This document shows, one piece after another, positions 1 through 15,737 of a stretch of 30,234 bases of DNA (position 1 is its first letter; the number at the start of each line of letters is the position of its first letter). The DNA is from a virus. The notes under the pieces are model-generated. The model searched no databases, had not been told where the DNA came from, and worked only from the letters and a program-made list of their open reading frames with translations. A program made the position numbers and the translations under genes. The DNA lies in the IMG/VR virus record IMGVR_UViG_3300041964_000130, positions 1 through 30,234 of that record. One strand, 5' to 3'.

Positions 1-2021
1 GAACGTCCGTGGGCAGCGTCACGCGATTGACGCCGACCCGTCCCTGCGGGAGATCGCGCGCCGGCCGGACGCGATCCGCACGGCGCCGGCCTCGCTCTGC
101 GTCCAGGTCACGACGAGCCGGCCGCCGCGGCGGCGCACCGAGGCGCGACTGATCGCGCGGTGCGGTGTGGTCCGCGACCGCGATCGCGGCACCCGGCGTG
201 GAGGCCGTCGTCGTGACCGACTGCTGCGAGCCGGGCGCCTCGGTGACCTCCGGGTGACGGGCCCGGGAGTCTGCGTCGGCGCGACGGCCGGGGCCGGCTC
301 GTCGCCGACCTGGAGCGTGCGCTCGGCCGGCATGGCGTCGGTGTTGCCGTCGCGGTCGACGGCGCGAGCGGCCAGGACGTGCTTGCCGTTCGCGAGGACG
401 CCGGCGTCCAGGCCGCCGGGCACGGCGCCCACGCGCCGTCGTCGACGCGGCACTCGAACGTCGCCTGCTCGGTCGCCGTCATCGAGGCCGTGACCGCCGC
501 GCCCTCGGCGACCGCTCCGGGCGCGTCGAGCGTCGTCTCCGGCGCGTGCTCGTCGATCGACACGTGGGCTACGCCCGCGCCGATCTGGTAGCCGTAGAGG
601 TCCTCCTCGTCGTCGCGGTCCGTCCCCCGGAGTCGCTCCTTGGTGACGAACACCGCAGCGCCGCCGGCGAGGACGTCCGCGGACTGGGCGGCGACATCGG
701 GGCCCGAGCTCGTGCCGTCGCGCCCGCTCGCCAGGAACGTGAGTCCGCCCGTGGCCACGTAGACATCGGCCAGCGCGTCGGTGTCGTCGGGGCTGATCGG
801 CTCCGCGGTCGTGAACGCGACGACGTTGCCGTTCGGGCTCATCCGCCCGAAGGTGTGGTCGTGCTCCCCGTTCGTCTTCGTCACATGGACGAAGTCCGGC
901 CGGCGAGACCCGGTACAGGTCAGCCGCCTTGTCGGTGTCGGTCGGAAGCAGCGCCTCCTTCGTCGAGACGAGCAGCGTCTTCGCGTCGTCGGAGACCCCC
1001 ACCTTCTGCGCCGGCGTCGTGCCGGGCGTGAGCAGCGTGGTCGTGCCGCCGTCGCGCGCGTAGAAGTCCTTCGTCTGGTCCAGATCACCGGCGACGAGCG
1101 GCTCCGTCGTGGTGAAGATGACGCGACCAACGGAGGGCGACGCCTCCGAGAAGAACACGGATTGCGCGGCAGCGGCGCCGTTCGGGCTGGGCGTCAGGAG
1201 GATGGGCTTGCCCGAGTAGTCCTGGAGGTACAGGTCGTCCTCCGCGTCGACGTCGGCAGCGACCAGCGGCTCGCGCGTGCGGTACACGACGTGGCCGTTG
1301 CTGCGGCCCAGCGCCTCGAAGTCCGCGCCGACGTCACCGTTGCCGTGCGTGGCCTGACCGACCGCCTTGCCGTCCGGGGTGAAGAAGACGTCGGCCTCAT
1401 CGTCCGTGTCGCTCTTGGTGACCTGATCCTCAGACTCGAAGAACACGTTCCCGGCCGTGGTCGCCCCCATGAAATGGGCGTTGCCCGGGGAGTTCGGTGA
1501 CATGTGGGTGATCGCGCCGGTCGCCGTGTCGTAGCGGTAGACGTCATCGAAGGTGTCGGTGTCGCCGGGTGTCAGCTTGGCGAACGTCTCGAGGTACACG
1601 AACCCGAGATCGGCGCTGTGGCCCGCGTGGTACACGGCCGGCTCGCCCTCGGCGCCGGGTGCGATGACGTCAGGCCGGAGGCGTTGCGCAGGTAGAGGTC
1701 GGCGTCGTCGTCCTGGTCGGCGGGCAGGAGGGCGTCCTGTGTGCTGAAGAGCGCCGCTCCGTTCGCGGTCGCACCCGTGACGTACGGTGCGTCGGAGGCC
1801 GCCGCGGTGCCGCTCGAGACGAGCTTCGTCACGCCGCCGGTCCGGACGTACAGATCCTCGATCGTGCCGTTGACGTCGCCGGGCGCGAGCGCCGAGGTCG
1901 ACTTGAAGAACGGGACCGCGCGGTCGTCCGACGCGCGGGCGTACGCGGCGTGCGCGGCGGCCGGGCTGGCGAGGGCCGTCGTGGCGGCGAGGACGGCGAT
2001 GAGTGAGGCGCGAGTCGACAA
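1..2021 (-). pseudogene. Secreted TolB/PD40-like beta-propeller protein, frameshifted, 3' end outside window
   Basis: The N-terminus (TTG start at 2021, AGGAG six bases upstream) is a signal peptide with an Ala-rich core. The mature protein is a chain of about nine units of roughly 50-60 residues. Each carries the signature L-x-P-x-D-x-D-x(4)-D-[LVF]-[YF], for example ALLPTDTDKAADLY and PISPDDTDALADVY, which fits blades of an extracellular propeller with acidic, possibly calcium-binding, loops. An Ig-like segment follows near 540-420, then a Pro/Thr-rich linker and a conserved C-terminal start (RGGRLVVTW) running off the left edge. The reading continues only by changing frame near 1670, 900, 420, 250 and 155, so the gene is either a pseudogene or, more likely, carries sequencing indels. 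Function is unknown; a surface or secreted role is inferred. Confidence 0.6.
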
Positions 2022-2242
2022 CGTGGCTCCTGGGTCCTTGGGGTGGGACGAGGTTCGCCTCGTCGGGCCCCGGGTGCCACAGGGAGGGCCCCCGTCTCAA
2101 CCCCAAGGTTTCGTCGCAGCCGAGAAGCCCTGGGTCGATCAGAGGGCGGCCCCCGTCGTCCGGGCCGCATCGGCGGCGAACCGGCACGGATCGATCCTGA
2201 GCGAAACGGCCGGGTGAGCCGGGCTCCTGCTCAACATCGGAA

Positions 2243-2260
2243 GCCCCGCCAGAGCGGGGC
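2243..2260 (-). terminator. Hairpin downstream of the tRNA-Val fragment
   Basis: GCCCCGC pairs perfectly with GCGGGGC around a 4-base loop. On the minus strand the hairpin lies just after the 3' end of the tRNA fragment and is followed by only two Ts, so it is a modest intrinsic terminator at best. It fits the usual placement of a terminator behind a tRNA gene. Confidence 0.45.
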
Positions 2261-2270
2261 CGTCTGACAG

Positions 2271-2317
2271 TGGGCGCGGCGGGTTTCGAACCTGCGACCT
2301 CTCGCGTGTGAAGCGCG
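2271..2317 (-). tRNA. 3' half of tRNA-Val (anticodon CAC), 5' half missing
   Basis: Read on the minus strand, the sequence gives an anticodon arm with CAC in the loop, a variable loop AGGTC, a T arm with loop TTCGAAA, a 3' acceptor strand CGCGCCC and discriminator A, without an encoded CCA. The anticodon stem has one G-A mismatch (position 28-42) and the T stem one A-C mismatch. No D arm and no matching acceptor GGGCGCG occurs upstream where the 5' half should be. Such 3' halves are typically attachment-site remnants left by tyrosine-integrase elements that enter tRNA genes. It may alternatively be a decayed tRNA or a victim of poor sequence quality. Confidence 0.6.
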
Positions 2318-2768
2318 GCGACAGCGTCAGCAGAACCGTGGTGTTCCCGGCGTAAACGCGTCGGCGGTGATTCGCTGGCCAACGATGAATGTAGGCGGAT
2401 AGCGGCCGATCTCCGGCGGTTCGGGCAGCAGTGCCCGTTCCCGAGTCACGCTGTGTGTGGACTACCGCTTCTCGTCCCAGAGCGATAGTGGTCGGGCTCG
2501 TCGTCGCGCTGTCGCTTCCAGGCGATAGCGACTGGAGGTTCAGCTATCGCGTTGGCGTATGAGGGCGGCCCTCATGTCCCGCGCCCGACCTCGGCGCAGT
2601 GGTTGCTGCGGTGTGGACGGCATCCTCAGAACTGGGGATTGCTATCGCACAGTTCGTCTGTGTAGCGTCGGCGCAAGGGCCAGTTCGGCATCTCCCTGAC
2701 ATCGCCGGCCGGCTTTCGTTCCCCCTTCCTCAGTCTTTTCTGAGTACCTGACCGCAGGAGGTCACCCC
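2318..2768. promoter_or_regulatory. Non-coding upstream region with repeated GCGATAG / CTATCGC boxes
   Basis: No convincing gene lies here. GCGATAG occurs at 2482-2488 and 2522-2528, and its complement CTATCGC at 2544-2550 and 2642-2648. Two of them form a perfect 8-bp inverted repeat, GCGATAGC (2522-2529) and GCTATCGC (2543-2550), separated by 13 bases. A small hairpin, CTCAG/CTGAG, lies at 2729-2744, and a GGAGG ribosome-binding site at 2757-2761 serves the gene starting at 2769. The boxes could be operator sites for that gene; this is inference from the pattern only. Confidence 0.4.
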
Positions 2769-4486
2769 ATGCCATGGACGCACGCGGTCAGGTTGCTGGC
2801 TTGCTTCACGACGCTCGTCTTGTTGACGATGGCGGGCGTCGCGCTCGGCGACGAATCCGGGTCCGATGCGCGCAAGGACGCGGCCGTTGAGATCGTGTCG
2901 TCGCTGGACTCGGTGGTCGCGGGCGCTCCATGCGAGTCGACGGGCGGCGAAACGATTGCAACGGACAAGGCGGACTATGCGCCCGACGAGACCGTCCAGG
3001 TGAGACGGCGCCGGCTTCGCTCCGGGCTGCGACGTGGTCATCAAGATCACCCGGCCCGACGGCGGGGTGTTCAAGGGCGACGGGACTTGGGGCCCGGGCA
3101 GCGACACGGTCACGACGTCCGGCGAGGGCTCGATCGAGTACCCGTACATCCTCAACGGGATGGACGGCGAGTTCCTTCTCGAGGCGATCGGCGCGGACGG
3201 TGCCGTCCTCGCCACCACGACATTCACCGACAGCACGGTCAAGGTCAGGGCCGCGGGTCCTGCGGGTGTGACCTTCGCAACCACGTGGGCGAAGTACAAC
3301 TCGAGCAACTGCACGGGCTCCCCCTTCGTCCAATGGGACGTTGTCCAACGTCGGGGCATCGGCCATCGCCCCGTCCTGGGGCAGCTTCACGTCGTCGCAA
3401 TCGCTTGAACTGACCGCAAATGCGGATGCCTCATCGCCTACGCCGGCTCCCACGTTCGCGAGCTGGACCAGCACGCTGCTGGACTCCCGGGACCGAGCTC
3501 AACTGGCAGGACCATCTGCATCCAGGGCTATGACAACGTGGGCTTCTTCGTCGTTCCGGTTACCGCCACGGCCACCTACTCGTTCGAGCCGGTGGTGACG
3601 GGGCCGTCGAATCAGAACGCCACGTCGGGTGAGTACAAGTCCTTCAGCCTCGGATCGTTCGCCGACAGCACCGGCGGTCCGTGGGAGGTCGATGTCGACT
3701 GGGGCGACGGGTCCGATCACACGACGTTCGAGATGAACACGGCCGGAGCGATCACTGGTCAGAGCCACACCTATGACCTGCCGAGCTTCACGCCCGCGCT
3801 CCGGAGCCTGAAGGTGGCCGTCACCGACAAGGCGCAGAGCACGACGAACTCCAAGACCGCGTCGGTCCTGGTCTCGCCGCCCGCCGACGGTGGCGTCCAG
3901 GTCAAGGCAGGCGGCACCTCCGGCAACGCCTTCGACGTGCAATGGGCCAAGTACGCGCGGCACCTCGGAGTCGCCCGACTCGACGTGCGAGGGCACGGCG
4001 TCTCCCGACGCCGCGCTCGAGGACGTGTCGGCGTCCGGGAGGGACTTTGCCTTCTACAACGACGACTCTGGGCCCGGTCGCGTGAGTCGCTACGGGTCGC
4101 TGCTCGTCACGGGCCTCGCCCACCGCGGACGACGGGGCCAAGTCGGCGGGTGGTCGTCGTCGAAGCCATACACGACGCCGGACCCCGTGCACCCCGAGAC
4201 GATCTGCATCCCGGGCTACGCCGTGTCGTTCTTCAACGGCCTCCCGACCAGCGAGACGACGCGCTCCTACGCGGCGACGTACAGGGCTGGTCCGATCGTG
4301 GCTGCGCCGGCCGAGCAGACGGCCAAGCCCGGCGAGTCCAAGTCGTTCGACCTCGGCTCGTTCGCCGACTCCGACCACGAGTCGGGGGTCAGCGAGTACA
4401 CGGTGGACGTCGACTGGGGAGACGGGACGTCCGAGAGCTTCAGGACGTCGGAGACCGGCACGATCGGCGCCAGGCAGCACACGTAT
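2769..4486 (+). pseudogene. Secreted multi-module PKD-domain protein, frameshifted and cut off by the junction
   Basis: ATG at 2769 is preceded by GGAGG and followed by a signal peptide (about 27 residues ending near VALG). After an Ig-like segment (TDKADYAPDETVQV onward) come two copies of a composite module. Each has a segment containing WAKY and Cys residues (near 3285 and 3940), followed by a PKD-type domain with VDWGDG and an H-T-Y end (3580-3780 and 4290-4486). Frame changes near 3003, 3338, 3495 and 3955 are needed to follow the protein. The second PKD domain stops exactly at its HTY motif, where phage-like sequence begins. PKD domains usually mediate adhesion or polymer binding at the cell surface; the partner is unknown. 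Confidence 0.6.
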
Positions 4487-4556
4487 CGGCTGCGAGCTCT
4501 CCCCCGAATATGCGGCCATCGCCGAAGCTCGTTTATCGGTCGGCATTGCCGCCTAG
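4485..4556 (+). pseudogene. C-terminal remnant of a DNA methyltransferase, 5' part missing
   Basis: The 23 codons before the TAG at 4554 read I-G-C-E-L-S-P-E-Y-A-A-I-A-E-A-R-L and a short tail. This is the characteristic last segment of phage and type II N4-cytosine/N6-adenine methyltransferases (the G-x-E-L-x-P-x-Y-x-x-x-A motif near the end of the fold). The rest of the gene is absent: immediately upstream the sequence is the PKD gene in another frame. It therefore marks the first recognisable phage sequence and places the junction at about 4480-4488. The assignment rests on a short motif but the match is good. Confidence 0.55.
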
Positions 4557-4635
4557 CAGGCTCGTTCTTCGGGGTATGGGTAGGGGTGCGGCTTGCCTGC
4601 GCGCACTCTCACGCCCCTGCGCGCGGGCTCGACAC

Positions 4636-4660
4636 GGCGGAGGACATGTCCGCCGCGTTC
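4636..4660. repeat. 25-bp direct repeat, left copy (hairpin-forming)
   Basis: This 25-bp segment matches 27487-27511 at 24 of 25 positions; the only difference is A versus T at the eleventh base. Each copy folds as a 6-bp stem (GGCGGA/TCCGCC) with a 7-base loop. This copy lies 80 bases after the methyltransferase stop and just before a strong terminator-like hairpin. It could be a shared 3' UTR element, a protein-binding site or an att-like core. Confidence 0.75.
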
Positions 4661-4672
4661 GTCGACGTCGTG

Positions 4673-4702
4673 GGGGTTTTTCCCCGAGCCCGGAAAAACC
4701 CC
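4673..4702. terminator. Strong 11-bp inverted repeat, probable bidirectional terminator
   Basis: GGGGTTTTTCC (4673-4683) pairs perfectly with GGAAAAACCCC (4692-4702) around an 8-base loop. The G/C clamp followed by runs of T and A within the stem is typical of terminators acting in both directions. It separates the methyltransferase remnant from the next operon, which starts at 4742. Confidence 0.65.
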
Positions 4703-4741
4703 GGCTTGCCGCAGTTGCTATTCTGTTCCAGTTGAGCGGCG

Positions 4742-5083
4742 ATGCGACTCGCGACGGAACAGCTTCGGACCAAGGCGCTTGGCGTGCTCGAGGAGGCGGC
4801 GATCGCGACGCGGGCCGCGCCGGTGCCGCCGGGTGAGGCGCTGCGCCGCGCCCTGGCCTGGCTCCACGCCCGGCATGGTGGCGATCGGTGGCCCTATGAC
4901 GGCTTCTGGCAGGCGGTGACGCGCGGGCATGGGGCGCAGGAGCAGCCCGGCGCCGCGGCGATCGGGCGGAGCCAGTCCGCCAATGCCTGCCTGAACGCAA
5001 TCTATCGCAGCGTCGGCGTCGAGCGTACCGCCGACATCATCTACGCGGCGGCGACGCGCTCGCGAGAAAGTTCCGCCCCTTGA
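4742..5083 (+). CDS. Hypothetical phage protein, first gene of the pre-packaging operon
   Basis: A 113-residue soluble protein, Ala- and Arg-rich, with a predicted mostly helical fold, no signal peptide and no membrane segment. It begins 40 bases after the strong hairpin at 4673-4702, so it is probably the first gene of a new transcript. I do not recognise a family. The central stretch (residues 25-60) is rich in Trp and His (ALAWLHARHGGDRWPYDGFW), which may bind a ligand or nucleic acid, but nothing shows this directly. Codon use matches the following phage genes and differs from the broken genes to the left. Confidence 0.65.
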   Translation: MRLATEQLRTKALGVLEEAAIATRAAPVPPGEALRRALAWLHARHGGDRWPYDGFWQAVTRGHGAQEQPGAAAIGRSQSANACLNAIYRSVGVERTADIIYAAATRSRESSAP

Positions 5084-5168
5084 CGAAAATCTAACTCCCC
5101 AAGCGGCCACGCAACGGCCAAAAACGACCCCGCCACAACTGCGCCTGGAGCGCAGCATGTGTGAACCG

Positions 5169-5196
5169 AAGCCCGCCGTCCCCCCCGGCGGGCTTT
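5169..5196 (+). terminator. Intrinsic-terminator-like hairpin
   Basis: AAGCCCGCC (5169-5177) pairs with GGCGGGCTT (5187-5195) around a C-rich 9-base loop and runs into TTTGCTGTTT. It lies between the gene ending at 5083 and the ribosome-binding site (GGAGG, 5206-5210) of the next gene, so it may partly terminate or attenuate transcription there. Confidence 0.6.
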
Positions 5197-5215
5197 GCTG
5201 TTTCCGGAGGCTGCG

Positions 5216-5539
5216 ATGTCCACACATTCGCCTTCGGCCGCCGCCGCCCGCACCTCGCGCGCCGACACCCCGTCCGGCGCCAAGGCTTCCTGTGAAGCCA
5301 CCAGCGGGCGGCGGCCCCCACATTCCCGCTCGGCCGAGACGCTCGAGCAGCTGAGCAGCCGCCTGGACGTGCTGATTCGCGACGTCGGGCTCGGCGCCCG
5401 ATCCCAGCGCGAGCATGACCACCTTGTCGACGAAGCCGAGGCGATCGCCACCGGCATCCGCGCCGTCTTCCGGGAGCCGACCCGGCAGGACCCTTCCAAT
5501 CCTCCGCTCTGGCAACAGGGCGGGAAAGCCATCTGGTGA
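5216..5539 (+). CDS. Hypothetical small phage protein
   Basis: A 107-residue protein. The ATG at 5216 was chosen over the upstream TTG at 5195 because GGAGG sits six bases before it and the terminator-like hairpin overlaps the TTG. The first 45 residues are Ser/Ala/Thr/Pro-rich and probably disordered. Residues 40-90 look helical (ETLEQLSSRLDVLIRDVG). It follows the hairpin at 5169 and is separated from the next gene by four bases. No family is recognised. Its position in the operon with a Gam-like protein suggests an accessory role in DNA metabolism, but that is only context. Confidence 0.55.
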   Translation: MSTHSPSAAAARTSRADTPSGAKASCEATSGRRPPHSRSAETLEQLSSRLDVLIRDVGLGARSQREHDHLVDEAEAIATGIRAVFREPTRQDPSNPPLWQQGGKAIW

Positions 5540-5543
5540 GCCG

Positions 5544-5744
5544 ATGAAGCCGCTTAACATGGATCAGCTGCGCGCCACCATCGAGGCGGCGCCGCCGGTC
5601 GGCCCCGTCGCCGGCGTGACCCGCCAGTGGCTGCAGCAGGTCGAGCGCGAGCTCAGCGAAGGCAGGGCCGCTCAGGCCCTCCTGGCGGCTCAGCCGCGCA
5701 TGGACGCCGCCAAAGCCTCCATTGGCGCCGTAGGCGCCCGGTGA
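5544..5744 (+). CDS. Hypothetical 66-residue protein upstream of gam
   Basis: A short helical, Ala/Gln-rich protein. The start ATG at 5544 lies four bases after the previous stop, with GTGAG just upstream as a weak ribosome-binding site; a second Met follows at codon 6. The middle (RQWLQQVERELSEGRAAQALL) has heptad character and could form a coiled coil. Its TGA overlaps the GTG start of the Gam-like gene by four bases, so the two are translationally coupled. I do not recognise it; a partner role to Gam is a guess from the coupling. Confidence 0.5.
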   Translation: MKPLNMDQLRATIEAAPPVGPVAGVTRQWLQQVERELSEGRAAQALLAAQPRMDAAKASIGAVGAR

Positions 5745-6253
5745 AGAGGCTGCGCACCACCGAGGCGGCAACCGCCGCCCTGACCTCCTACAGCGAGCTT
5801 AGCGCCCGTTTGGCGGCCATAGAGGCCCGCCGGAAGGCGATGATCGGCAGGGTGAACGCCGCGGCCGATGCGAAGGCCGCGGGTGTGTCGGCCGAGCTGG
5901 CGGACCTGACGGGCCCGATCGGCAAGTGGTGGCAGGCGAAGGGCCACCAGCTGCTGCCCAAAGGCCGCAAGACGATGCAGCTTGGTGGCTGCACCATTGG
6001 CACCGTCGCCGGCAGAGCCAAGCTCGGCCATGGCTTCGAGACCGAGGAGAAGGCGGTCACCGCCCTGCGCGGCTCCCGCTATGCCAAGCAGACCACCAGC
6101 GTGAAGTATTCGATCGACCGCCCGGCCACGCTGAAGCTGCTGCAGGCGGGTGGTGCCCGGGCAGCAGCGCTCGGGGAGCTGGGCTTCCGGGTCGACGAGG
6201 GTGAGCGCTTCGTGCTCGCCCCTGTCGAGCAGAGCGGCACGGTCGGCAGCTGA
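5741..6253 (+). CDS. gam: Gam-like host-nuclease inhibitor / DNA-end-binding protein
   Basis: This 170-residue protein resembles phage Mu Gam and related host-nuclease inhibitors (about 170 residues). The family binds double-stranded DNA ends as a Ku-like dimer and protects linear phage DNA from exonucleases such as RecBCD. Visible features are a long N-terminal helix (residues 10-55, SARLAAIEARRKAMIGRVNA), a central segment with R-K-T-M-Q-L-G-G-C, as in the family's strand region (normally R-K-x-x-x-x-x-G), and a C-terminal helical part with R-V-D-E-G-E-R-F near the end. The GTG start at 5741 overlaps the preceding stop. There is no Mu-type transposase here, so it likely protects linear or replicating DNA of a temperate siphophage. 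Confidence 0.75.
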   Translation: MKRLRTTEAATAALTSYSELSARLAAIEARRKAMIGRVNAAADAKAAGVSAELADLTGPIGKWWQAKGHQLLPKGRKTMQLGGCTIGTVAGRAKLGHGFETEEKAVTALRGSRYAKQTTSVKYSIDRPATLKLLQAGGARAAALGELGFRVDEGERFVLAPVEQSGTVGS

Positions 6254-6263
6254 GGAGCGAGAC

Positions 6264-6458
6264 ATGGACGAGCGTGCCAAGCTGGACGATCTGATCGCCG
6301 AGCTCACGATCGCACGCCTTGACCAGGTGCAGGCACGCGAGGACTACCAGGAGGCGCAGCAGCGTGCCGAGGCGGCGCGGGTGCGGGCCCAGGATCTCAC
6401 CCGGTCCATCAACGAGCAGGTCGATCGCATGACCGCGGCCCGCGCCAATGGCGCGTAA
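6264..6458 (+). CDS. Small coiled-coil protein, 64 residues
   Basis: ATG at 6264 is preceded by GAGGAG (6253-6258). The whole protein is charged and helical (ARLDQVQAREDYQEAQQRAE), with clear heptads, no hydrophobic segment and no Cys. Its last 11 bases overlap the HNH gene start at 6448. It sits between the Gam-like protein and the HNH nuclease, the usual place for small accessory proteins before the packaging genes. A coiled-coil oligomer is likely; function is unknown. Confidence 0.55.
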   Translation: MDERAKLDDLIAELTIARLDQVQAREDYQEAQQRAEAARVRAQDLTRSINEQVDRMTAARANGA

Positions 6459-6795
6459 GGCTTGGCAGCGGGCCGACGGCACCCCTGACAAGCGCAAGCG
6501 CGGCCGCGCCGGCCAGCGCGATCGGCGGCGGCGCCTCGAGCGGACCGGCGGGCTCTGCCACATGTGCCTGGACGAGGACCGCACCGAGCTGGCCACGGTG
6601 GTCAACCATATCGTGCCGCTCGCCCGGGGCGGCGAGGACGTCGACGACAACACCGAGAACCTATGCGCCCGGCATGACGCCGAGGTCACCGCCCGCCAGT
6701 TCGGCAAGGCCGCGCCGATCGAGGCCCGCGGCGTCGGCGCCGATGGTCGGCCGACCAGCGCCAGCCATCCCTGGAACCGCCCTCGACGCGCCTGA
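6448..6795 (+). CDS. HNH homing-type endonuclease next to the packaging genes
   Basis: This 115-residue protein has a basic N-terminus and a complete HNH core. Cys37 and Cys40 (C-H-M-C) form the first zinc half, N-H-I-V-P-L places the catalytic His at 54, N-T-E-N-L spans residues 68-72, and Cys73 and His76 (C-A-R-H) complete the zinc site. Phages with HK97-type heads commonly carry such an HNH gene beside terS/terL, where it stimulates terminase cleavage at cos (shown for HK97 gp74). The same role is likely here because the gap just downstream carries cos-like repeats. The start at 6448 overlaps the preceding gene. Confidence 0.85.
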   Translation: MARKAWQRADGTPDKRKRGRAGQRDRRRRLERTGGLCHMCLDEDRTELATVVNHIVPLARGGEDVDDNTENLCARHDAEVTARQFGKAAPIEARGVGADGRPTSASHPWNRPRRA

Positions 6796-6797
6796 TC

Positions 6798-6978
6798 CGG
6801 CGCCCCTACACGGCGCCCCTACAGGGCCTCCCCGGCGGGCCGCCCACCCCCCGCGACTGGCACGGAGCGTGCCGAAGGGGGGGGGAGGGTCGATCGTTGG
6901 GCCGCCCCTGGCCGGACACCGCGTAGGGGGGCCATGCACACTGCGAGGTGTTTCAAAGTAAAAAGTTGGGGTAGGGTG
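6798..6978 (+). other. Non-coding gap before terS with tandem repeats; candidate cos/terminase recognition site
   Basis: CGGCGCCCCTACA occurs twice in exact tandem (6798-6810, 6811-6823). An inverted version of its core, GTAGGGG, follows at 6923-6929, and related GGGGTAGGG lies at 6969-6976. Between them are long G and C runs. There is no credible gene. In HK97-like cos phages the cohesive-end site lies between the HNH gene and terS, and short repeats there bind the small terminase. The placement is convincing; the exact nick positions cannot be read from one sequence. Confidence 0.5.
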
Positions 6979-7491
6979 ATGGGGCAGGTGAAGCGTCCGG
7001 CGGCGAACGAGGCCGCGGCGAAGCCGGCGCGGAAGCGGGCTCCGGCGCCGAGGGCGGCGAAGCGGGCGACCGGTAAGGGCGAGGGCATCGTTCCCGAACC
7101 AAACTGGACGCAGCTGCTGCCCGATGTCGGCGAGCGGGCGGCCGCGCGGGCGCACTGGCAATCGGTGGCCGGCGAGATGCGCGAGCGCGAGACGCTGTCG
7201 CCTGCCAATAGCCACGCGCTGTTGCGCCTGGTGCTCGCCTACCTGGTTTATGACCGCTGCTCGCTCAGGGTGGCGATGGACGGGCTGGTGACGGAGCCGG
7301 CGGCGGACAACCCGAAGGCGATCGCGCGCCTCTCGATCCACTACAAGGCCATGGCCGAGGCCGAGAAGACCGCGGAGCGCCTCGAGGCGCAGCTCGGTCT
7401 CTCCCCGGGCCGGCGCGGCCGCGTCGGCAAGGTGGCGAAGAAGCGGGAGCGCAGCGCCAGTGCCGACGCGTTCCTCGGGCCGAAGGGCTAA
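6979..7491 (+). CDS. terS: Terminase small subunit, P27 family
   Basis: This 170-residue protein binds the packaging site and recruits the large terminase. The first 30 residues are Lys/Arg/Ala-rich and probably bind DNA. Residues 50-140 are helical and follow the P27/Terminase_4 plan, with a helix-turn-helix-like part (SPANSHALLRLVLAYLVY) and a C-terminal segment after an LGLSPGRRGRVGKV motif typical of the family's oligomerisation tail. ATG at 6979 was chosen because GTAGGGTG lies directly upstream; an in-frame start at 6934 has none. The terL gene begins inside its last 32 bases. Confidence 0.85.
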   Translation: MGQVKRPAANEAAAKPARKRAPAPRAAKRATGKGEGIVPEPNWTQLLPDVGERAAARAHWQSVAGEMRERETLSPANSHALLRLVLAYLVYDRCSLRVAMDGLVTEPAADNPKAIARLSIHYKAMAEAEKTAERLEAQLGLSPGRRGRVGKVAKKRERSASADAFLGPKG

Positions 7492-9280
7492 GGCAACAGC
7501 GGCCGACCCGACCACGGCCTGGGCCGAGGCGGCGGTCCGCGGCGACTTCGTCGTCGGCGAATCGGTCCGCTATTCGGCCGAGCGGCACCTCCGGAATCTG
7601 AGGGACGCGGAGAGGAGAGGATATTTCTGGCGGCCGGAGCTCGCGCAGCGAGCACTGGACTTCTTTCCGTCGCTGTTCACGATCACGGACGGACCCGCGG
7701 CCGGCAAGCCGTTCCACCTGATCCCGTACCAGACCTTCTGCGTCGGCTCGCTGATGGGCTGGGTGAACGCGGAAGGGCGGTGGCGCTTCCGGTCCGGTTA
7801 CATCGAAACAGGCAAGGGACAGGCCAAGTCGCCAATGATGGCTGGCCTCGGGCTCTACGCCATGGGCTGGTGCGGGTTTGCGCGGGCGCAGATCTACTCG
7901 ATCGCGGCCAACAAGCAGACCTCGATGGTGCTGTTCAAAGATGCGGTGGCAATGTGCCGCGCGCCGGTGCCAGGCTACGATGATGACGAGACGCTCGAGC
8001 AGCTCGGCCATGTAAAGATCCGGGGTGAGGACGACAACGCCCACAAGATCGAGCATCCGAGCTCGCAATCCTTCTTCCTGCCGCTCGCGGATGGCAAGCA
8101 GCAGTCCGGTCCGCGGCCCCGCATGGTGCTTGCGGACGAGATCCACGAATTCTCTACCGACAACCAGCTCGAGATCTGGGCGCGCGCGATCGACAAGATC
8201 GCCGGCAGCGCCATGATGGTGCTCGGGAGCAACACGCCGGCGAAGTCGCAGTTCGTCGGCACGTCCATCTCGGACACCGCCCAGGCGGTGGCCAAGGGCG
8301 ACCTGAAGAACGACACGGCTTTCGCGTTCGTGGCGCGGATCGACAAAGCCGACCGGGAAACGGTCTTCGACAACGAGGCATGCTGGGGCAAGTCGCTCCC
8401 GGCGCTCGGGATCACCTATCCGATCACCAACATCCGGGAGGCGGTGGAGACCGCCAGGACGCGGCCATCGACGGCCTCCTCGGTCCGGCGGCTCTACTTC
8501 GGCATCCCCGCCGGCGCCGCCGACTTCTGGATCAACGAAAGCGACTGGGCTGCGGTTCAGGCGCCGATCGACGATGACAAGATGGAGCAGCTGCGCGGCT
8601 GCCGTTGCTGGCTCAGCCTCGACCTGTCGAAGAAGAACGACCTCACGGCGCTCACCGCGACGTGGATCGACGACGAGGGCCGGCTCTGGTCGAAGACCTG
8701 GTATTGGACGGCCAAGGAAGGGCTGGAAGACAGGGCGGTAAAGGATCTCGCGCCCTACGAGGACTGGGTCGAGCAAGGATTTCTCGCCGCCGTCGGCGGC
8801 ACGACGATCGACTACACCTTCGTCGCCGAGCAGGTGAAACAGCTCTACAGCGACCACGATGTCGTGGAGCTGGTCTTCGATCCCGCCAAAATGGCGGATT
8901 TCGAGGCGGCGTGCGAGGAGATCGGCTTCGCAGCCTGGCGCTACAAAGGGCCGGACGAGCCGGAAGGCACCGGCCTAAAAATGGTCGCCCACACGCAGGG
9001 CAAGCAGGTTCGATTCGAAGACCGGCAATACAGCATGCCACGCTCGATCGAACGCTTCGAGGACAGGATCCTCAAGAAGACGATCACGATCGACAATTCG
9101 CCGGTCACCTACAGCTGCGCAGCCAATGCGACGCTGGACGAGGACGGGATGAGCAACCGGTGCTTCGACAAGAAGCGCTCCCGCGGCCGCATCGACGGTA
9201 TTGTGACGGCCGCGATGGGCGTCGGCGCGGCCGACAGCGTTTCGCTCGAAGCAGCAGCCTTTGAATATACGGGGATCTGA
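7460..9280 (+). CDS. terL: Terminase large subunit (ATPase and nuclease)
   Basis: This 606-residue protein pumps DNA into the prohead and cuts concatemers. The N-terminal ATPase has a Walker A variant E-T-G-K-G-Q-A-K-S (116-124), a Walker B M-V-L-A-D-E-I-H-E with Asp226/Glu227, and a coupling motif V-L-G-S-N-T-P (254-260). The C-terminal RNase H-type nuclease offers Asp388 (L-S-L-D-L-S), Asp474 (V-F-D-P) and Asp579 (I-D-G-I-V). The GTG start at 7460 gives an N-terminus (DPTTAWAEAAVRGDF) like that of Terminase_1 relatives and implies coupling to terS. Length is normal for the family; no defects are seen. Confidence 0.95.
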   Translation: MPTRSSGRRAKATAADPTTAWAEAAVRGDFVVGESVRYSAERHLRNLRDAERRGYFWRPELAQRALDFFPSLFTITDGPAAGKPFHLIPYQTFCVGSLMGWVNAEGRWRFRSGYIETGKGQAKSPMMAGLGLYAMGWCGFARAQIYSIAANKQTSMVLFKDAVAMCRAPVPGYDDDETLEQLGHVKIRGEDDNAHKIEHPSSQSFFLPLADGKQQSGPRPRMVLADEIHEFSTDNQLEIWARAIDKIAGSAMMVLGSNTPAKSQFVGTSISDTAQAVAKGDLKNDTAFAFVARIDKADRETVFDNEACWGKSLPALGITYPITNIREAVETARTRPSTASSVRRLYFGIPAGAADFWINESDWAAVQAPIDDDKMEQLRGCRCWLSLDLSKKNDLTALTATWIDDEGRLWSKTWYWTAKEGLEDRAVKDLAPYEDWVEQGFLAAVGGTTIDYTFVAEQVKQLYSDHDVVELVFDPAKMADFEAACEEIGFAAWRYKGPDEPEGTGLKMVAHTQGKQVRFEDRQYSMPRSIERFEDRILKKTITIDNSPVTYSCAANATLDEDGMSNRCFDKKRSRGRIDGIVTAAMGVGAADSVSLEAAAFEYTGI

Positions 9281-9282
9281 GC

Positions 9283-10584
9283 ATGGGGATGATGCACCGT
9301 GCTCGCGCCGCCTTGCGGGCTTGGCAGTCGCCAAGCACGAGCAGCTCGACCTCCGCGATGGCCGCGGGCGCCGATGGCTTGAACGACCTGGGCGGTGCCA
9401 CCGTCCTGAACCTCCTGGGCGCGGGCGCCCGCGGGGTGCCGATGTCAGAGTCCCGGGCGTTCTCGGTTCCCGCAGTGATGCGCGCGCTCGAGGTCCTGTG
9501 CGGCCTCTACGCGATGACGCCGTGCCACTATTACAAGCGTACGCCTGGGGGGAAGGTCCGCGTCGACGACGCGCCGCAGGCGCAGATCTTCCTCACCAGC
9601 GCCAACGCGGTGCAGCCCGCATTCCTGCTCAAAGAGCTGATGCTCGGCGATCTGCTGATGCAGGGTCGTTTCGGCGGCTTCATCCACCGCGACCCGCTTT
9701 ACCGCCCTTCGGGTCTGACACGGCTGGATCCCGGTGGCATCGGGCCGCCACTGCAGCACTGGACCAAGGCGGACGGGCTCGAGCTCTTCTACGACGTCTC
9801 ACTGCCCGACGGATCCCGGGAGCGCATGTCGCGCAACGACCTCTGGTTTGTGCCTGGCTTCAGCCGAGACGGGCTGGTCGGCGTCGATAGGCTGAAGCTG
9901 CTTGGCGACACGATCGAGCGCGCAGCCTCGATCAGCGAGTTCGCCAAGCGCTTCTGGGACAACAATGCGCAGCCGTCGACGATCCTGACCACCAAGGGCA
10001 AGGTCGAGCCGGATCAGAAGAAGCTGATCAAGGCCGACTGGATCGCCCGTTTCGCCGGCCCGCGCAACGCCGGCGCCGTCGCCGTCCTCGACCAGGAAAT
10101 GGACGCCAAGTTCCTGGCGCACGACAACAAGGCCTCGCAATTTATTGAGGCGCGCACCTTTGACGTGGCGGATCTTGCCCGGGTGTTCGGCACGGCGCCG
10201 CATATCCTGTTCGAGCTCAGCCGAGCTACTCTTGCGAACATCGAGCAGCAGAGCCTCGAGCTGTATCTCTACACGATGCTAGCGCATTTCGAGCGCGGCG
10301 CGGCCCACATGACCCACCAGTTCGCCGAGCCCGGGCACTTCTTCGAGTTCATGCCCGACGCGATGCTCAAGGGCGACATCAAGACCCGCTACGAGGCCTA
10401 CGCGATCGCCGTCGACAAGGGCGTCCTTAATCCCAACGAGGTCCGCCGGCGCGAGAACCTCAACGATCGAGAGGGTGGCGACGAATACCGGGTCGGCTCC
10501 GGCTCCACCGTCGAAGGGCAGCAGCCCTCCAAGCCGACCGACCACCGGCCACCGCCGCCGCCCCAGCCCGAGGAAGACGAATGA
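9283..10584 (+). CDS. Portal protein, HK97 family
   Basis: This 433-residue protein forms the dodecameric ring at one capsid vertex through which DNA enters and leaves. It follows terL after two bases and starts at ATG 9283. The N-terminal third has the family start (SESRAFSVPAVMRALEVLCGLYA). A middle clip region contains L-W-F-V-P-G-F-S, and the long helix QKKLIKADWIARFAG is typical. The motif R-V-F-G-T-A-P-H-I-L-F near residue 300 matches the R-x-F-x-x-P hallmark of HK97-type portals. The tail is Pro-rich and acidic (HRPPPPPQPEEDE). The gene overlaps the protease start by four bases. Confidence 0.92.
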   Translation: MGMMHRARAALRAWQSPSTSSSTSAMAAGADGLNDLGGATVLNLLGAGARGVPMSESRAFSVPAVMRALEVLCGLYAMTPCHYYKRTPGGKVRVDDAPQAQIFLTSANAVQPAFLLKELMLGDLLMQGRFGGFIHRDPLYRPSGLTRLDPGGIGPPLQHWTKADGLELFYDVSLPDGSRERMSRNDLWFVPGFSRDGLVGVDRLKLLGDTIERAASISEFAKRFWDNNAQPSTILTTKGKVEPDQKKLIKADWIARFAGPRNAGAVAVLDQEMDAKFLAHDNKASQFIEARTFDVADLARVFGTAPHILFELSRATLANIEQQSLELYLYTMLAHFERGAAHMTHQFAEPGHFFEFMPDAMLKGDIKTRYEAYAIAVDKGVLNPNEVRRRENLNDREGGDEYRVGSGSTVEGQQPSKPTDHRPPPPPQPEEDE

Positions 10585-11513
10585 ACCAGCGCATCCTGGC
10601 GGCGATTCGATCGCAGCCTTGGGCGATCCTGCCCGAGCACCTCCTCGCGATCGAGGCGATCGCGCTGCGCGTCCTCGATGACCCGGCCGTTCTCGCACTG
10701 AAGGATGACGGCCACCAGGAGCGGCAGGTCTCCGCGGTGGCGCAGATGGGCTGCCGCGCGCCGGCGACGCGAACCTCGATGCTGCGGGACGGCGTCGGGA
10801 TGCTGCCGATCACCGGCCCCATCTTCCCCAGGGCCAACATCATGACGGAGCTGTCGGGAGCCACCTCGCTCGATGTTGCCGCGGCCGACCTTCGCGCGCT
10901 GCAGGCCTCACCCGACGTCCGCTCGATCTTGATGGTGGTCGACTCGCCGGGTGGCGCCGTCGCCCAGGTGAGCGACTTCGCCCGACTGGTGGCGGCCTCC
11001 CCCAAGCCCATTTCGGTGCATGTCACCGGCATGTGCTGCTCGGCCGCCTACTGGATCAGCAGCCCGGCCGCCGGCGGGATCAGCACCGATCCCACGGGCA
11101 TCGTCGGCTCGATCGGCGTCATGATCTCCACTTCCTACCAGGTTGAGCCTGACAGCGAGGGGCGCCGCGATCTGGACATCGCGAGCTCGAATGCGCCGAA
11201 CAAGCGGCCCGACCTCTCGACCGATGAGGGCCGCGCCCAGGTCCGGCAGATGCTCGACGGTATTGAGGAGGTGTTTATCCAGACGATCGCCCGCGGCCGC
11301 GGCGTGACCGAAGCGACGGTCCGCAACGAGTTCGGCCGGGGCGGCACGAGAACCGGCAAGGACGCGAAAGCGGCCGGCATGATCGATCGTGTCGAGGCAG
11401 ACGGCCTTGACGGAGCGATCCGCCGGCTGGCGCGCAGCGCCCCTCCGGCAGCGCCTCGGCGGGCCGCCGCGGCTAATTCCCTGACACTCGCGCGACTGCG
11501 CGCGGGTCTCTAA
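10581..11513 (+). CDS. Head maturation protease, S49 (SppA/phage C-like) family
   Basis: This 310-residue ClpP-fold serine protease probably cleaves the scaffold part of the capsid protein during head assembly. It shows D-S-P-G-G (121-125, oxyanion loop), the nucleophile Ser154 in C-C-S-A-A-Y-W, and Lys208 in N-A-P-N-K-R-P as the likely catalytic base of the Ser-Lys dyad. I-V-G-S-I-G-V at 174-180 is the family strand. It lies between portal and capsid, as in HK97-like phages that use S49 rather than U35 proteases. There is no signal peptide, so it acts inside the cell. ATG overlaps the portal stop (ATGA). Confidence 0.93.
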   Translation: MNQRILAAIRSQPWAILPEHLLAIEAIALRVLDDPAVLALKDDGHQERQVSAVAQMGCRAPATRTSMLRDGVGMLPITGPIFPRANIMTELSGATSLDVAAADLRALQASPDVRSILMVVDSPGGAVAQVSDFARLVAASPKPISVHVTGMCCSAAYWISSPAAGGISTDPTGIVGSIGVMISTSYQVEPDSEGRRDLDIASSNAPNKRPDLSTDEGRAQVRQMLDGIEEVFIQTIARGRGVTEATVRNEFGRGGTRTGKDAKAAGMIDRVEADGLDGAIRRLARSAPPAAPRRAAAANSLTLARLRAGL

Positions 11514-11531
11514 CCCAAGGAGACTGATGAT

Positions 11532-12854
11532 ATGCGCATCACCGCGCTGAAGACGGCCCTCGCGGCCGTCCTCGCCACGATGGACGGCACGCTGCAGGCG
11601 GCCACCGACGACAACAACCGCGAGCTCACGGCCGAAGAGCAGACGGCCTACGACGCCGAGGCGAAGAAGGCGCAGGGGCTGCAGGCGCAGATCCAGCGCG
11701 AGGAAAACCTCCTGGCCCTCCGGGCCTCGGCCGCGGCGCCGATCACCCTTCCGGGCAACCCGGGCAACGCCGGCGCCGGCGCCGGCGGCCGCACCGTGCC
11801 CGCGTCCCCGGCCGAGAAGGCCGAGCCGGGTGCCATGGTCGGCCGGGTCGCGATCGCGATCGCGGCGACCGGCGGCCAGGACCAGCGGGCGATGGCCGAC
11901 CACGCCTCGAGCGTCTGGGGCGATGAAACCGGCACGATCGTCGCCAACATGGAGCAGTCGACCAACACGAGGGGCGGCTACCTGGTCGACACGGCCTACA
12001 GCCGCGACTTCATCGGCCTGCTCCGGCCCCGCGTCGTCATCCGGAACATGGGCGCCCGATCGGTGCCGATGCCGGACGGAAATCTCACCATGCGGAAGCA
12101 GACCGGCAGCACCACGGCCGGCTACGTCGGCGAACGCTCGCCGGCGCCCACCACCCACCTCACCGTCGGCACGCTCAGCATGACGGCGAAGACGCTCCGC
12201 GCGCTCGTGCCGATCACCAATCAGCTGATCCGCCGCGCCGCCTGGGGCGTCGACACGCTGGTCCGCGACGATCTCGTGACCTCGGCCGCGATCAAGGAGG
12301 ATCAGCAGTTCCTCCGCGGCACCGGCAGCGCCCTGGCGCCGGCCGGCCTGCGCAGCCTTCTGCTCGGCAGCCATGTGCTGACGATGACGGCAGCGCCGGA
12401 TCTGGTGAAGGTCACCAACGACCTTTCCCGCCTGCGGCTGAAGGTCATCAATGCCAATGTCCCCATGTCGAAGTGCGGCTACATCATGAGCCCGCGGACG
12501 TCGGAGTTCCTCGAGAACATCCGCGACGGCAACGGCAACAAGGCGTTCCCCGAGGTCGCCCAGGGCAAGCTCGGCAACTATCCGATCGGCGTCACCACGT
12601 CGGTTCCGGACAATCTCGGCGCGGGCTCCAACGAGTCGGAGATCTACTTCGGCGACTTTGAGCAGTTCCTGATCGGCGACACCCACCAGGTGGTGCTCGC
12701 CGCGTCGGACAGCGCCGCCTACGAGGAGGACGGCGAGATCAGGTCGGCGTTCTCGAACGACGAGACGGTGATCCGTCTCATCCAGGAGCACGACACCCAG
12801 CTGCGGCACGACGCCGCCTTTGCGGTGCTCACCGGCGTCACCTGGGGCGCCTAA
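11532..12854 (+). CDS. Major capsid protein, HK97 fold
   Basis: A 440-residue capsid subunit starting at ATG 11532 with AAGGAGA nine bases upstream. Residues 1-75 form a charged helical delta (scaffold) domain (ELTAEEQTAYDAEAKKAQGLQ), followed by a Gly/Ala/Pro-rich linker (78-110) where the S49 protease probably cuts. The mature part begins near residue 130 and has the family landmarks G-G-Y-L-V-D (N-arm region), E-lobe strands around TMRKQTGSTTAGYVGE, the spine helix R-R-A-A-W-G-V-D-T-L-V-R-D-D, and the P-domain end with Q-A-K/L-like C-terminal strands. It is intact and of normal length. Confidence 0.93.
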   Translation: MRITALKTALAAVLATMDGTLQAATDDNNRELTAEEQTAYDAEAKKAQGLQAQIQREENLLALRASAAAPITLPGNPGNAGAGAGGRTVPASPAEKAEPGAMVGRVAIAIAATGGQDQRAMADHASSVWGDETGTIVANMEQSTNTRGGYLVDTAYSRDFIGLLRPRVVIRNMGARSVPMPDGNLTMRKQTGSTTAGYVGERSPAPTTHLTVGTLSMTAKTLRALVPITNQLIRRAAWGVDTLVRDDLVTSAAIKEDQQFLRGTGSALAPAGLRSLLLGSHVLTMTAAPDLVKVTNDLSRLRLKVINANVPMSKCGYIMSPRTSEFLENIRDGNGNKAFPEVAQGKLGNYPIGVTTSVPDNLGAGSNESEIYFGDFEQFLIGDTHQVVLAASDSAAYEEDGEIRSAFSNDETVIRLIQEHDTQLRHDAAFAVLTGVTWGA

Positions 12855-12891
12855 GACGGCCTAGGCCGATAACATCATCCACCACCCAGCG

Positions 12892-12911
12892 AGGGCGCCT
12901 TCGGGCGCCCT
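12892..12911 (+). terminator. UUCG-capped hairpin after the capsid gene
   Basis: AGGGCGCC pairs perfectly with GGCGCCCT around a C(TTCG)G tetraloop, an especially stable loop. It lies 37 bases after the capsid stop and just before the next gene. There is no T run, so it may protect the capsid mRNA 3' end or slow transcription rather than end it. Confidence 0.55.
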
Positions 12912-12932
12912 TCGCGCATCTGGAGAGCCGAT

Positions 12933-13076
12933 ATGGCCGTGAAATTCCTGAGGCCCTGCCAGCAGGGCACCCTCTACAATGAAGGCGAGATCGCCGGCTT
13001 CGACAAGGAGACCGAGGAGCGCCTGGTGAAGCAGAAGTTCGCCGAGCTGGTGAAGGCCGAAAAGTCGGCTTCCTGA
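12933..13076 (+). CDS. Small protein between capsid and connector, 47 residues
   Basis: ATG at 12933 is preceded by GGAGAG (12922-12927). The protein reads M-A-V-K-F-L-R-P, then N-E-G-E-I-A-G-F-D-K-E-T-E-E-R-L. Short proteins with this 'Y-N-x-G-E-x-A-x-F' pattern are common directly after the capsid gene in HK97-like phages, where their function is not established. It probably folds as a small beta-hairpin followed by a helix. It is too short for most gene finders but has a good ribosome-binding site and normal codon use. Confidence 0.65.
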   Translation: MAVKFLRPCQQGTLYNEGEIAGFDKETEERLVKQKFAELVKAEKSAS

Positions 13077-13101
13077 TCGACCTCGAGCGGTGGAGGGCGG
13101 C

Positions 13102-13401
13102 ATGACACAGATCCTGGCGCTTTCCGCTGCTCGCCAGCACCTTCGCGTCGGCGACGAGCTCGCCGATGAGGAGCTGCTGCCCTATGTCGCCGCGGCCGAG
13201 GCGGCCGTCGCCGACTTCCTCGGCCGCCCGATCGTCGATACGGTGAAAGGCTGGCCGGATCTCGAGGCGGTCCCCTCGACCGTCATCCATGCTATCAGGG
13301 TCGTGCTCACCGAGCTGTACGAGAACCGGGCAAGCCCGGTCATCGACGAGCGCCTGCTCCGGATGCTGATCGGCCGCCACCAGGTCGTGAGTTTCGGTTG
13401 A
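13102..13401 (+). CDS. Head-tail connector (HK97 gp6-like)
   Basis: This 99-residue, mostly helical protein probably forms the ring under the portal. ATG at 13102 was chosen because GGAGGGCGG lies directly upstream; an in-frame GTG at 13090 has none. The sequence opens with L-S-A-A-R-Q-H-L-R-V and contains D-E-L-L-P-Y-V-A-A-A-E-A-A-V-A-D-F-L, the helix pair typical of gp6/YqbG-like adaptors, then V-I-H-A-I-R-V-V-L-T-E-L-Y-E-N-R-A. Its stop overlaps the next start by one base (TGATG). Confidence 0.8.
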   Translation: MTQILALSAARQHLRVGDELADEELLPYVAAAEAAVADFLGRPIVDTVKGWPDLEAVPSTVIHAIRVVLTELYENRASPVIDERLLRMLIGRHQVVSFG

Positions 13402-13757
13402 TGAGCGACAAATCGCTGGCGAGCCGGCTGCGCCATCGTATCACCATCCGCCGGATTACGGAGGTCAAGAACGGGCGAGGCGGGCTGGTCGACACGCCGG
13501 TCGACATCGCCGCCGTGTGGGCGGAGGTGAAGGGGCTGGACGGGCGCGAGTCGGTAATGGAGCGGGTGCTGCAGGGCGTCTCGGTCTTTCGGGTGACGAT
13601 ACGCTGGCGCGACGACCTTCGGGTGAGCGACCAGCTGGTGTCGGCGGGTTCCTGCTTCTACGGGCGCGAGGTCAATATACGCTCGATCGTCGATCCGGAC
13701 GGGCGGCGCGAGCAGCTCGTCGTCATCGGCGAAGGGGCGGCGTGGGGTGGGCCGTGA
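13401..13757 (+). CDS. Head closure / head-tail adaptor protein
   Basis: A 118-residue beta-rich protein of the Phage_H_T_join (SPP1 gp16-like) type, which plugs the connector and gives the tail its docking surface. It opens with S-R-L-R-H-R-I-T-I-R-R (the family's L-x-x-R-I-x-I start), then has V-W-A-E-V-K-G-L-D-G-R-E, V-T-I-R-W-R and a final strand with I-R-S-I-V-D-P-D-G-R-R. ATG at 13401 shares one base with the preceding stop. Its length and place between the gp6-like and gp10-like genes support the call. Confidence 0.82.
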   Translation: MSDKSLASRLRHRITIRRITEVKNGRGGLVDTPVDIAAVWAEVKGLDGRESVMERVLQGVSVFRVTIRWRDDLRVSDQLVSAGSCFYGREVNIRSIVDPDGRREQLVVIGEGAAWGGP

Positions 13758-14284
13758 GGCAGCGGGTCGAAGGACTGGCCGAGGCATACGCCATGTTCGG
13801 TCGGATCGGCGCGACGGCCGCCGAGGACGCGGCCGAGCTGATCGAGATCATCGGCACCGAAGTGCTCGCCGCGCAAAACCGGGATGTCGCCAAGAGATCC
13901 GGCGCGCTGGCGGCGGCGCTGTCGATGCGGTTCAAGTCGGAGGAGCTGACGGCGCGGATCGGCCTGCTGATCGGCGGTCGCGATGCTTCCAGGTCCAACG
14001 GGCGCAATCGCAGTTCGGTCGCCGGCGGACCCTTCTACGGCCGCTTCGTCGAATATGGCCGGCGAGCACAGACCGTGCTCGTCACGCGTCGCATCAAGAG
14101 ACGCAAGATCCGGGGCAACGGCCGCACGTCGAAGCGGCGGGTGCTCTACGACGGCAAAGCCTATTCGATGAAGGTCAAGGCCATGGCGCCCCGTCCCTTC
14201 GTCCACAAGGATCGCCCTGAGATCCGCGCCGAGCAGCGGATCGCCACTTTCTGGGCGCAGGTACTGGACAGGAACGGCGCATGA
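13754..14284 (+). CDS. HK97 gp10-like neck/tail-completion protein
   Basis: A 176-residue protein with an N-terminal helical region (residues 1-60, EDAAELIEIIGTEVLA) and a family-typical middle where G-P-F-Y-G-R-F-V-E-Y-G lies next to a basic stretch (TRRIKRRKIRGNGR). The C-terminus has the hallmark A-P-R-P-F-V-H-K near residue 150, as in HK97 gp10 relatives (P-x-P-F-x-x-P). The basic insertion is longer than usual. GTG at 13754 overlaps the preceding stop by four bases and the next gene starts inside its stop. Confidence 0.8.
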   Translation: MRQRVEGLAEAYAMFGRIGATAAEDAAELIEIIGTEVLAAQNRDVAKRSGALAAALSMRFKSEELTARIGLLIGGRDASRSNGRNRSSVAGGPFYGRFVEYGRRAQTVLVTRRIKRRKIRGNGRTSKRRVLYDGKAYSMKVKAMAPRPFVHKDRPEIRAEQRIATFWAQVLDRNGA

Positions 14285-14691
14285 TCGACCTGATGTCGGC
14301 CGTGCAGGCCGCAACCTATTCGGCGCTGGCGGAGCGCGTGCCGGCGGCGATCGCGCCGGTCTTCGACACCGTGCCGCAGGGGACGATGGGATCGTTCATC
14401 CAGGTCGGCGGGATCGACAGCGACAACGAAGGGGAGAAGGACGAGCAGCGCGAGCGGTTCGAAGTCCAGGTGCACAGCATCTATGTCGGCAAGGACCGCG
14501 GCGAGCTGCTGGCGATGATGCACGCGGCGCGCGAGGCGCTGGACGAGCAGGACTTGCAAGGCGAGGGCGTCAGTTTTTCCCCGCCCGCCTTCCTTGGCGC
14601 CTCGTCCGACTCGGTGCCGGCGGTGACCGACGACGGCCGTTTCGTCTTCGCCGGGGTCAGCATCTTCGAGATCTACGCCGAGCCGGCCTGA
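14281..14691 (+). CDS. Tail terminator / tail completion protein (DUF3168)
   Basis: A 136-residue protein that probably caps the tail tube and binds the neck. DUF3168 features are visible: an N-terminal helix (LMSAVQAATYSALAERV), V-F-D-T-V-P-Q-G-T-M-G-S-F-I-Q-V-G, a strand pair with R-F-E-V-Q-V-H-S-I-Y-V-G, a helix (ELLAMMHAAREAL), and a final strand with F-A-G-V-S-I-F-E-I-Y. ATGA couples it to the gp10-like gene. It is followed by a terminator-like hairpin, closing the connector block. Confidence 0.85.
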   Translation: MIDLMSAVQAATYSALAERVPAAIAPVFDTVPQGTMGSFIQVGGIDSDNEGEKDEQRERFEVQVHSIYVGKDRGELLAMMHAAREALDEQDLQGEGVSFSPPAFLGASSDSVPAVTDDGRFVFAGVSIFEIYAEPA

Positions 14692-14702
14692 CCGGCGGCG
14701 AA

Positions 14703-14720
14703 CCCCTCAGGGGGCTTTTT
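14703..14720 (+). terminator. Short GC hairpin with T tail
   Basis: CCCC and GGGG pair around a 3-base TCA loop, followed by GGCTTTTT. It lies 11 bases after the tail terminator gene and about 45 bases before the tail tube gene, where a partial terminator would set the ratio of connector to tail tube. The stem is short, so strength is uncertain. Confidence 0.45.
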
Positions 14721-14764
14721 CCACCACTTTTTCAGCCCCGGCGCAGCCGGAAAAGGAGAGCAAC

Positions 14765-15181
14765 ATGAAAACGCAAATGGGCAAGGCCTACCGGCTGCTG
14801 TTCGCCACCACCGCCGCCGGCGTCGCGACGGCGCTCGGCGGCGAGAAGTCGTTCAGCTGGTCGCACGGGAGCAGCAACGTCGACACCACCGACAAGGACG
14901 GCCCCTCCGGCATCTATGTGCCGGGCCAGATTTCCTTCTCGGTCAACGGCAACATCAAGCTGCCCGACGCAGCGCTCGAGCTCGCCTTCGACGCCTGCAA
15001 GTCCGGCGACGAACTCTTCGTCACCGTGAAGAACGGCGCGATCGTCAAGTTCCACGGCGCCGTGTCCGTCGGCAACTTCAAGGGCGACTTCGATTCGACG
15101 GCCGCCGCCCCGTACAGCTTCGAGCTGCTCAACTCCGATGTGCCGCTGGTCGACGACCTCGGCGCGACGGGCGGCGCGTGA
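14765..15181 (+). CDS. Major tail tube protein
   Basis: A 138-residue tube subunit starting at ATG 14765 with AAAGGAGAG upstream, a strong ribosome-binding site expected for an abundant protein. It contains V-D-T-T-D-K-D-G-P (the TP901-1-type major tail protein hallmark: 'D-x-T-x-x-D-x-x-G'), a beta strand with Q-I-S-F-S-V-N-G-N, and A-F-D-A-C-K-S-G-D-E-L. It is short for the family, without the C-terminal Ig domain seen in some. Its stop overlaps the next gene's GTG start by four bases. Confidence 0.85.
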   Translation: MKTQMGKAYRLLFATTAAGVATALGGEKSFSWSHGSSNVDTTDKDGPSGIYVPGQISFSVNGNIKLPDAALELAFDACKSGDELFVTVKNGAIVKFHGAVSVGNFKGDFDSTAAAPYSFELLNSDVPLVDDLGATGGA

Positions 15182-15582
15182 GCGGCGGCGCCCGCCGGGC
15201 GAATGCCGTGCGGGGCGAGCATCAGCTCGTCCTCGCCGGCAAAACCTATCTGCTCCGCCCGAGCCACACGGCGCTGGTCGAGATCGAGGCGCAGACGCGG
15301 CCGATCATGGCGCTGGTGCGGCTCGGCAATGCCGGCGAGCTGTCGTTCGAGCATCTCGGCATCATTGGCGCGGAACTGATCCGCGCCGGCGCGGCCGACG
15401 ACGACACGATGACCCGCGCCGTGTCGGCCGAGCGGATTTCCGAGCTGATCATGGAGGAGGGCGTCGCCAAGGCGATGGCTTGCTTCACGCTCTGCCTGCT
15501 CGACGCGGTCACCGGCGGGCGCACCGCCTCGGGGGAAGCGAAGGCGGCTCCAGCGAAGAAGGCCCCGCCTGGCGCCGCCTGA
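15178..15582 (+). CDS. GTA-gp10-like tail assembly chaperone, first component
   Basis: A 134-residue protein with the gene-transfer-agent-family start (N-A-V-R-G-E-H, then L-V-L-A-G-K-T-Y-L-L-R-P). A helical core (LVEIEAQTRPIMALVRLG), a second helix bundle and a low-complexity Ala/Lys/Pro tail (from residue 118) follow. Such proteins help pack the tape measure and load tail tube subunits and are not part of the virion. The GTG start is coupled to the tube gene and its TGA overlaps the ATG of the second chaperone (TGATG), so re-initiation rather than a programmed frameshift is likely. Confidence 0.75.
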   Translation: MSGGARRANAVRGEHQLVLAGKTYLLRPSHTALVEIEAQTRPIMALVRLGNAGELSFEHLGIIGAELIRAGAADDDTMTRAVSAERISELIMEEGVAKAMACFTLCLLDAVTGGRTASGEAKAAPAKKAPPGAA

Positions 15583-15695: not shown

Positions 15696-15737
15696 GCAGG
15701 CCCTTCGACGGGCATGAGACGAAGGAGGGGCAGGGGC

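Follow-up and report, generated by a model that had tools for sequence, protein, structure and literature searches.

A probable artificial chimera of a bacterial fragment and an unrelated temperate siphovirus fragment in an IMG/VR viral record

Viral records are documented to suffer from chimeric ends (PMC10978663). In such contaminated viral and metagenomic contigs DNA of two organisms is found together, with a foreign end and an abrupt shift in composition and in the genes present. The sequence analyzed here (hereafter the window) is the whole of an IMG/VR viral record, 30,234 bases long; it likewise combines a foreign end with such a shift, and nothing essential distinguishes it from the described cases. 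Chimeras arising in MDA are primed by 2-21 complementary bases (PMC1855051), and the joint in the window resembles them in having a short shared stretch, here at most 8-9 bases. However, the MDA chimeras are mostly inverted joins within one genome, whereas the joint in the window connects two unrelated genomes. The phage part of the window has its closest described counterparts among temperate HK97-type siphoviruses with alphaproteobacterial relatives, with which it has the morphogenesis, lysis and integrase modules in common. Its nearest relatives in IMG/VR are the loci L004 and L005. It departs from these siphoviruses in the early-region modules that precede the terminase, and in the window a methyltransferase gene is cut off. 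We consider the contig to be an artificial chimera of a bacterial and an unrelated phage fragment, with a probability of about 0.92.

The original prediction had described a sharp joint at about 4.5 kb, at which two unrelated genes are fused within about 8 bases, a PKD gene reading up to an H-T-Y motif at 4486 and the tail of a DNA methyltransferase reading from 4485. Both frames were read again, and the joint is confirmed as genuinely present in the sequence. The PKD-like frame on the plus strand continues to H-T-Y (codons 4478-4486), perhaps two residues further, and the gene is truncated there by the junction. On the same strand, the frame from 4485 to 4556 translates to IGCELSPEYAAIAEARLSVGIAA followed by a stop codon, and DNA similarity to the methyltransferase genes of three other IMG/VR loci (L042, L044 and L045) starts exactly at 4485. 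A codon-level HMM, trained on the phage genes of the right side and blind to the junction, ended the left coding segment at 4481. Within the PKD gene, copy 1 of the repeat aligns with copy 2 through HTYDL/HTYRL; hence, at most about eight or nine bases (ATCGGCTGC, 4485-4493) could be common to both sides. Homology start, coding end and a composition change point at 4460-4480 place the junction at 4482-4493.

The change in composition was located by a scan of the whole window with an order-2, strand-symmetric composition model allowing one change point. The best two-segment split fell at 4460, followed by 4480, and gained 118 log units; this is about three times the gain of the best internal split of either the right part (39) or the left part (36). 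With composition models trained without positions 4200-4800, the cumulative optimum was found at 4463. The tetranucleotide comparison of the two sides, which the original prediction had proposed, gave a distance of 0.627; within the right part, a 4.5-kb piece compared with the remainder never exceeded 0.415. No second genome with the same joint was found among the IMG/VR records searched: a 21-base word spanning the junction had no match in other viral contigs, in a scan from which the record itself and very near records were possibly excluded.

The left arm carries two bacterial genes. The first (about 270-2003, minus strand), delimited by frame-by-frame translation, the codon HMM and frame margins, encodes an exported protein with repeats such as DTDTFDDVYRYD and DDEADVFF. 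The second (2769-4486, plus strand), delimited by translation, HMM, repeat alignment and frame margins, encodes an exported protein with two PKD-like copies (3569-3666 and 4272-4369) that are 70% identical. A match to PKD_4 (PF18911) at 3586-3867 has an E value of 4e-4 and lies below the curated cut-off. The two genes point away from each other across a long spacer. Relatives of the left genes were matched neither in genome contigs (two scans with short exact words) nor in plasmids nor, by conserved-word searches, among 2.9 million viral contigs; as these searches mostly need short exact words, the lack of a match does not prove an absence of relatives. The assignment of the left arm to actinobacteria is an impression. 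Host-derived genes are carried by some phages, and the left genes could on general grounds be seen as cargo of a phage that has acquired bacterial surface-protein genes. Of the explanations considered this is the least credible, as the search of viral contigs revealed no relative and the two genes are divergent around a long spacer, damaged and of different composition.

To the right of the junction, positions 4485-4556 hold the last 23 codons and the stop codon of a site-specific DNA methyltransferase gene, identified through IMG/VR homologues and a codon search. A degenerate-codon search with the remnant peptide in IMG/VR retrieved five loci, each of which encodes the peptide within a site-specific DNA methyltransferase, just downstream of the DPFxGSGST motif. 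At the DNA level the methyltransferase of L042 is 90% identical, and those of L044 and L045, which are alike, are 83% identical. The catalytic motifs DPPY and DPFxGSGST lie upstream in the relatives and are missing from the 23 residues found in the window; what is left of the gene is a remnant that the join has cut off. Three relatives of the phage (L030 and L031, which are nearly alike, and L039) encode a methyltransferase with a C-terminus of this kind, in the same orientation as TerL and about 5 kb upstream of it; in the window the distance from remnant to terminase is 2.9 kb. Since relatives carry a like methyltransferase upstream of the terminase, the remnant would most simply be part of the phage's own gene that was interrupted by the join.

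The two sides also differ in gene intactness, again in line with the original prediction. Over roughly 3.7 kb of left coding sequence there are about 7 frame breaks, 5 of them strongly supported. The minus-strand repeat gene is spread over at least four frames, with breaks near 433, 897 and 1669, and the PKD gene over about five, with breaks near 3003, 3340, 3470-3500 and 3957. Apart from the stretch 3341-3470, around which two breaks are weakly supported, each left segment favors its own frame by 35-250 nats. No in-frame nonsense codons were found in the left coding segments, and the codon bias of the left arm is still sharp. In the right part no frame breaks were recognized, changes of frame there coincide with ordinary gene ends, and large genes such as that of the 1093-residue tape measure are intact. 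Sequence quality is therefore unequal between the arms. Frameshifts without nonsense codons, together with a sharp codon bias, look like sequencing indel errors rather than gene decay. Long-read assemblies contain 0.23 indels per kb when polished and 4.7 per kb when unpolished (PMC6487183), and the density of breaks in the left arm, about 2 per kb, falls between these values. The left arm may be poorly covered, uncorrected read sequence of an unrelated bacterium.

Two origins of the joint had been left open in the original prediction, a chimera of two organisms and an insertion of the phage by illegitimate recombination; the first is favored here and the second is not. For a natural insertion, the phage would have been opened in its methyltransferase gene and recombined through microhomology into a bacterial surface-protein gene, after which the host genes decayed. 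Broken left genes are what decaying genes would look like, and the few bases shared at the junction count against an artificial chimera to the extent that they suit a natural illegitimate recombination, which would leave just such an overlap, equally well. Nevertheless, the decay would have produced frameshifts alone, with no nonsense codon and with the codon bias kept sharp. The damage also extends to another gene over 2 kb away. A natural insertion would require a rare event plus two adjacent host genes damaged by indels only. Moreover, the junction was present in no second IMG/VR record searched, and the best named terminase matches of the phage come from Azospirillum, an alphaproteobacterium, while the composition of the left arm is very different. 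Natural illegitimate insertion is thus an unlikely origin of the joint, with only a very small share of the probability, and the particular event of a temperate siphovirus entering the exported PKD-protein gene of a distant bacterium through a few bases of microhomology, with its methyltransferase gene opened, is slightly less probable again.

The right 25.7 kb, from 4485 on, reads as a clean fragment of a temperate HK97-type siphovirus. An intergenic stretch (4557-4741) is followed by a small phage gene (4742-5083) with relatives in L005 (74%) and L040 (70%). Genes for a Mu Gam-like protein, an HNH endonuclease and the terminase small subunit (5627-7491) precede those for TerL, portal, head protease, major capsid, connector, tail and tape-measure proteins (7460-20391), all of which are intact. 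The tail tip and fibre, endolysin and Rz-like spanin genes (20765-27258) come next, followed by a tyrosine integrase gene (27577-28887); all these genes, from the small gene onward, are on the plus strand. A replication-initiation O-like gene (29111-29809, a weak match) lies beyond them on the minus strand. A related terminase was found in 36 IMG/VR loci. The nearest locus, L004, shares 85% DNA identity over 9 kb, the second nearest, L005, 82% over 4.2 kb. Among named sequences, the best TerL matches were Azospirillum phage Cd and Azospirillum brasilense plasmids (40.7% each), and positions 1-7900 of the window gave no match to named phages at the DNA level. The Gam-like gene had suggested a Mu-like insertion, and this candidate was rejected: no transposase was present in the right-hand genes scanned, and the phage is interrupted within a gene instead of at one of its ends.

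The junction is not adjacent to the integrase gene, which is 23 kb away, and coincides neither with a tRNA gene nor with an att repeat. There are no tRNA genes within the window. In L040, the integrase gene (286-1551) adjoins a tRNA-Ser(cga) gene (38-127) at the contig end, which is likely the attachment site, and no pieces of this tRNA-Ser gene were detected in the window. These observations bear on natural insertion, as the phage possesses a tyrosine integrase whose relative sits beside tRNA-Ser, and equally on the possibility that the junction is an ordinary integrase-made prophage boundary (attL or attR), the left arm being host DNA. Such a boundary could be expected for a temperate phage with an integrase, and host flanks are common in viral records (PMC10978663). 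In addition, a near-identical direct repeat of 25 bases is present at 4636-4660, 151 bases to the right of the junction, and at 27487-27511, just upstream of the integrase gene. As an att pair this repeat was rejected, being away from the junction and, in L005 too, flanked by phage genes. The boundary explanation, which we regard as highly improbable, is further contradicted by the position of the junction within a methyltransferase gene, which in relatives belongs to the phage, and by a phage-like replication gene beyond the distant integrase. The repeat is more likely an operator-like element than a boundary. The stretch concerned, GGCGGAGGACATGTCCGCCGCGTTC, is partly palindromic; it lies upstream of the 4742 gene, recurs upstream of the integrase gene with one mismatch, and could serve the phage as an operator. 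An exact match to the 25-base pattern occurs in only one other IMG/VR contig, that of L005, where positions 7395-7420 are identical to 4636-4661 of the window (26/26). A third segment between 4485 and 4742 was also considered and rejected on account of this identity and of the nearly identical copy upstream of the window integrase.

An artificial chimera is favored because homology start, coding end, composition and gene intactness independently place unrelated sequences together at 4482-4493, and because the break lies inside a phage methyltransferase gene, away from any attachment site. The joint is most likely an artefact of laboratory or assembly, not biology. In the proposed course of events, a bacterial chromosome fragment (window 1 to about 4484) would have been joined, across no more than 8-9 shared bases, to an unrelated phage fragment starting at 4485 inside a phage DNA methyltransferase gene. 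The join could have been made in vitro, in one DNA or read molecule (a ligation or template-switch chimera), or in silico, during assembly. A classic de Bruijn misjoin needs k of 21 or more. The overlap at the junction is too short for this, which counts against the explanation in that it has to invoke a chimera from the library or from long reads. The left arm would then retain uncorrected insertions and deletions, as expected from a single chimeric read or very few, and the phage side would be accurate; low read support would explain the damage.

Taken at face value, the joint would put a phage with alphaproteobacterial relatives inside a surface gene whose bacterial owner is of a very different kind. 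Positions 1-4484 should be trimmed from the viral record before host range, cargo genes or gene transfer are inferred. The joint is a data-quality flag that tells nothing new on phages and matters for quality control alone. The point where homology starts and the point where the codon frame ends, combined with an unsupervised change point in composition and with frame-damage asymmetry, provide a cheap chimera test that needs no reads.

Some further features of the phage arm and its relatives were observed. The L005 contig (L047 1-1293, 2251-3540) contains two integrase genes in opposite orientation with an O-like gene between them, and perhaps represents two neighboring prophages. A tRNA-Ser call in L048 looks spurious. 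Among the tail genes of the window, the gene at 22681-23268 encodes a Major tropism determinant N-terminal domain (Mtd_N). The tape-measure protein (15714-18995, 1093 aa) includes a metallo-endopeptidase-like segment at about residues 519-670.
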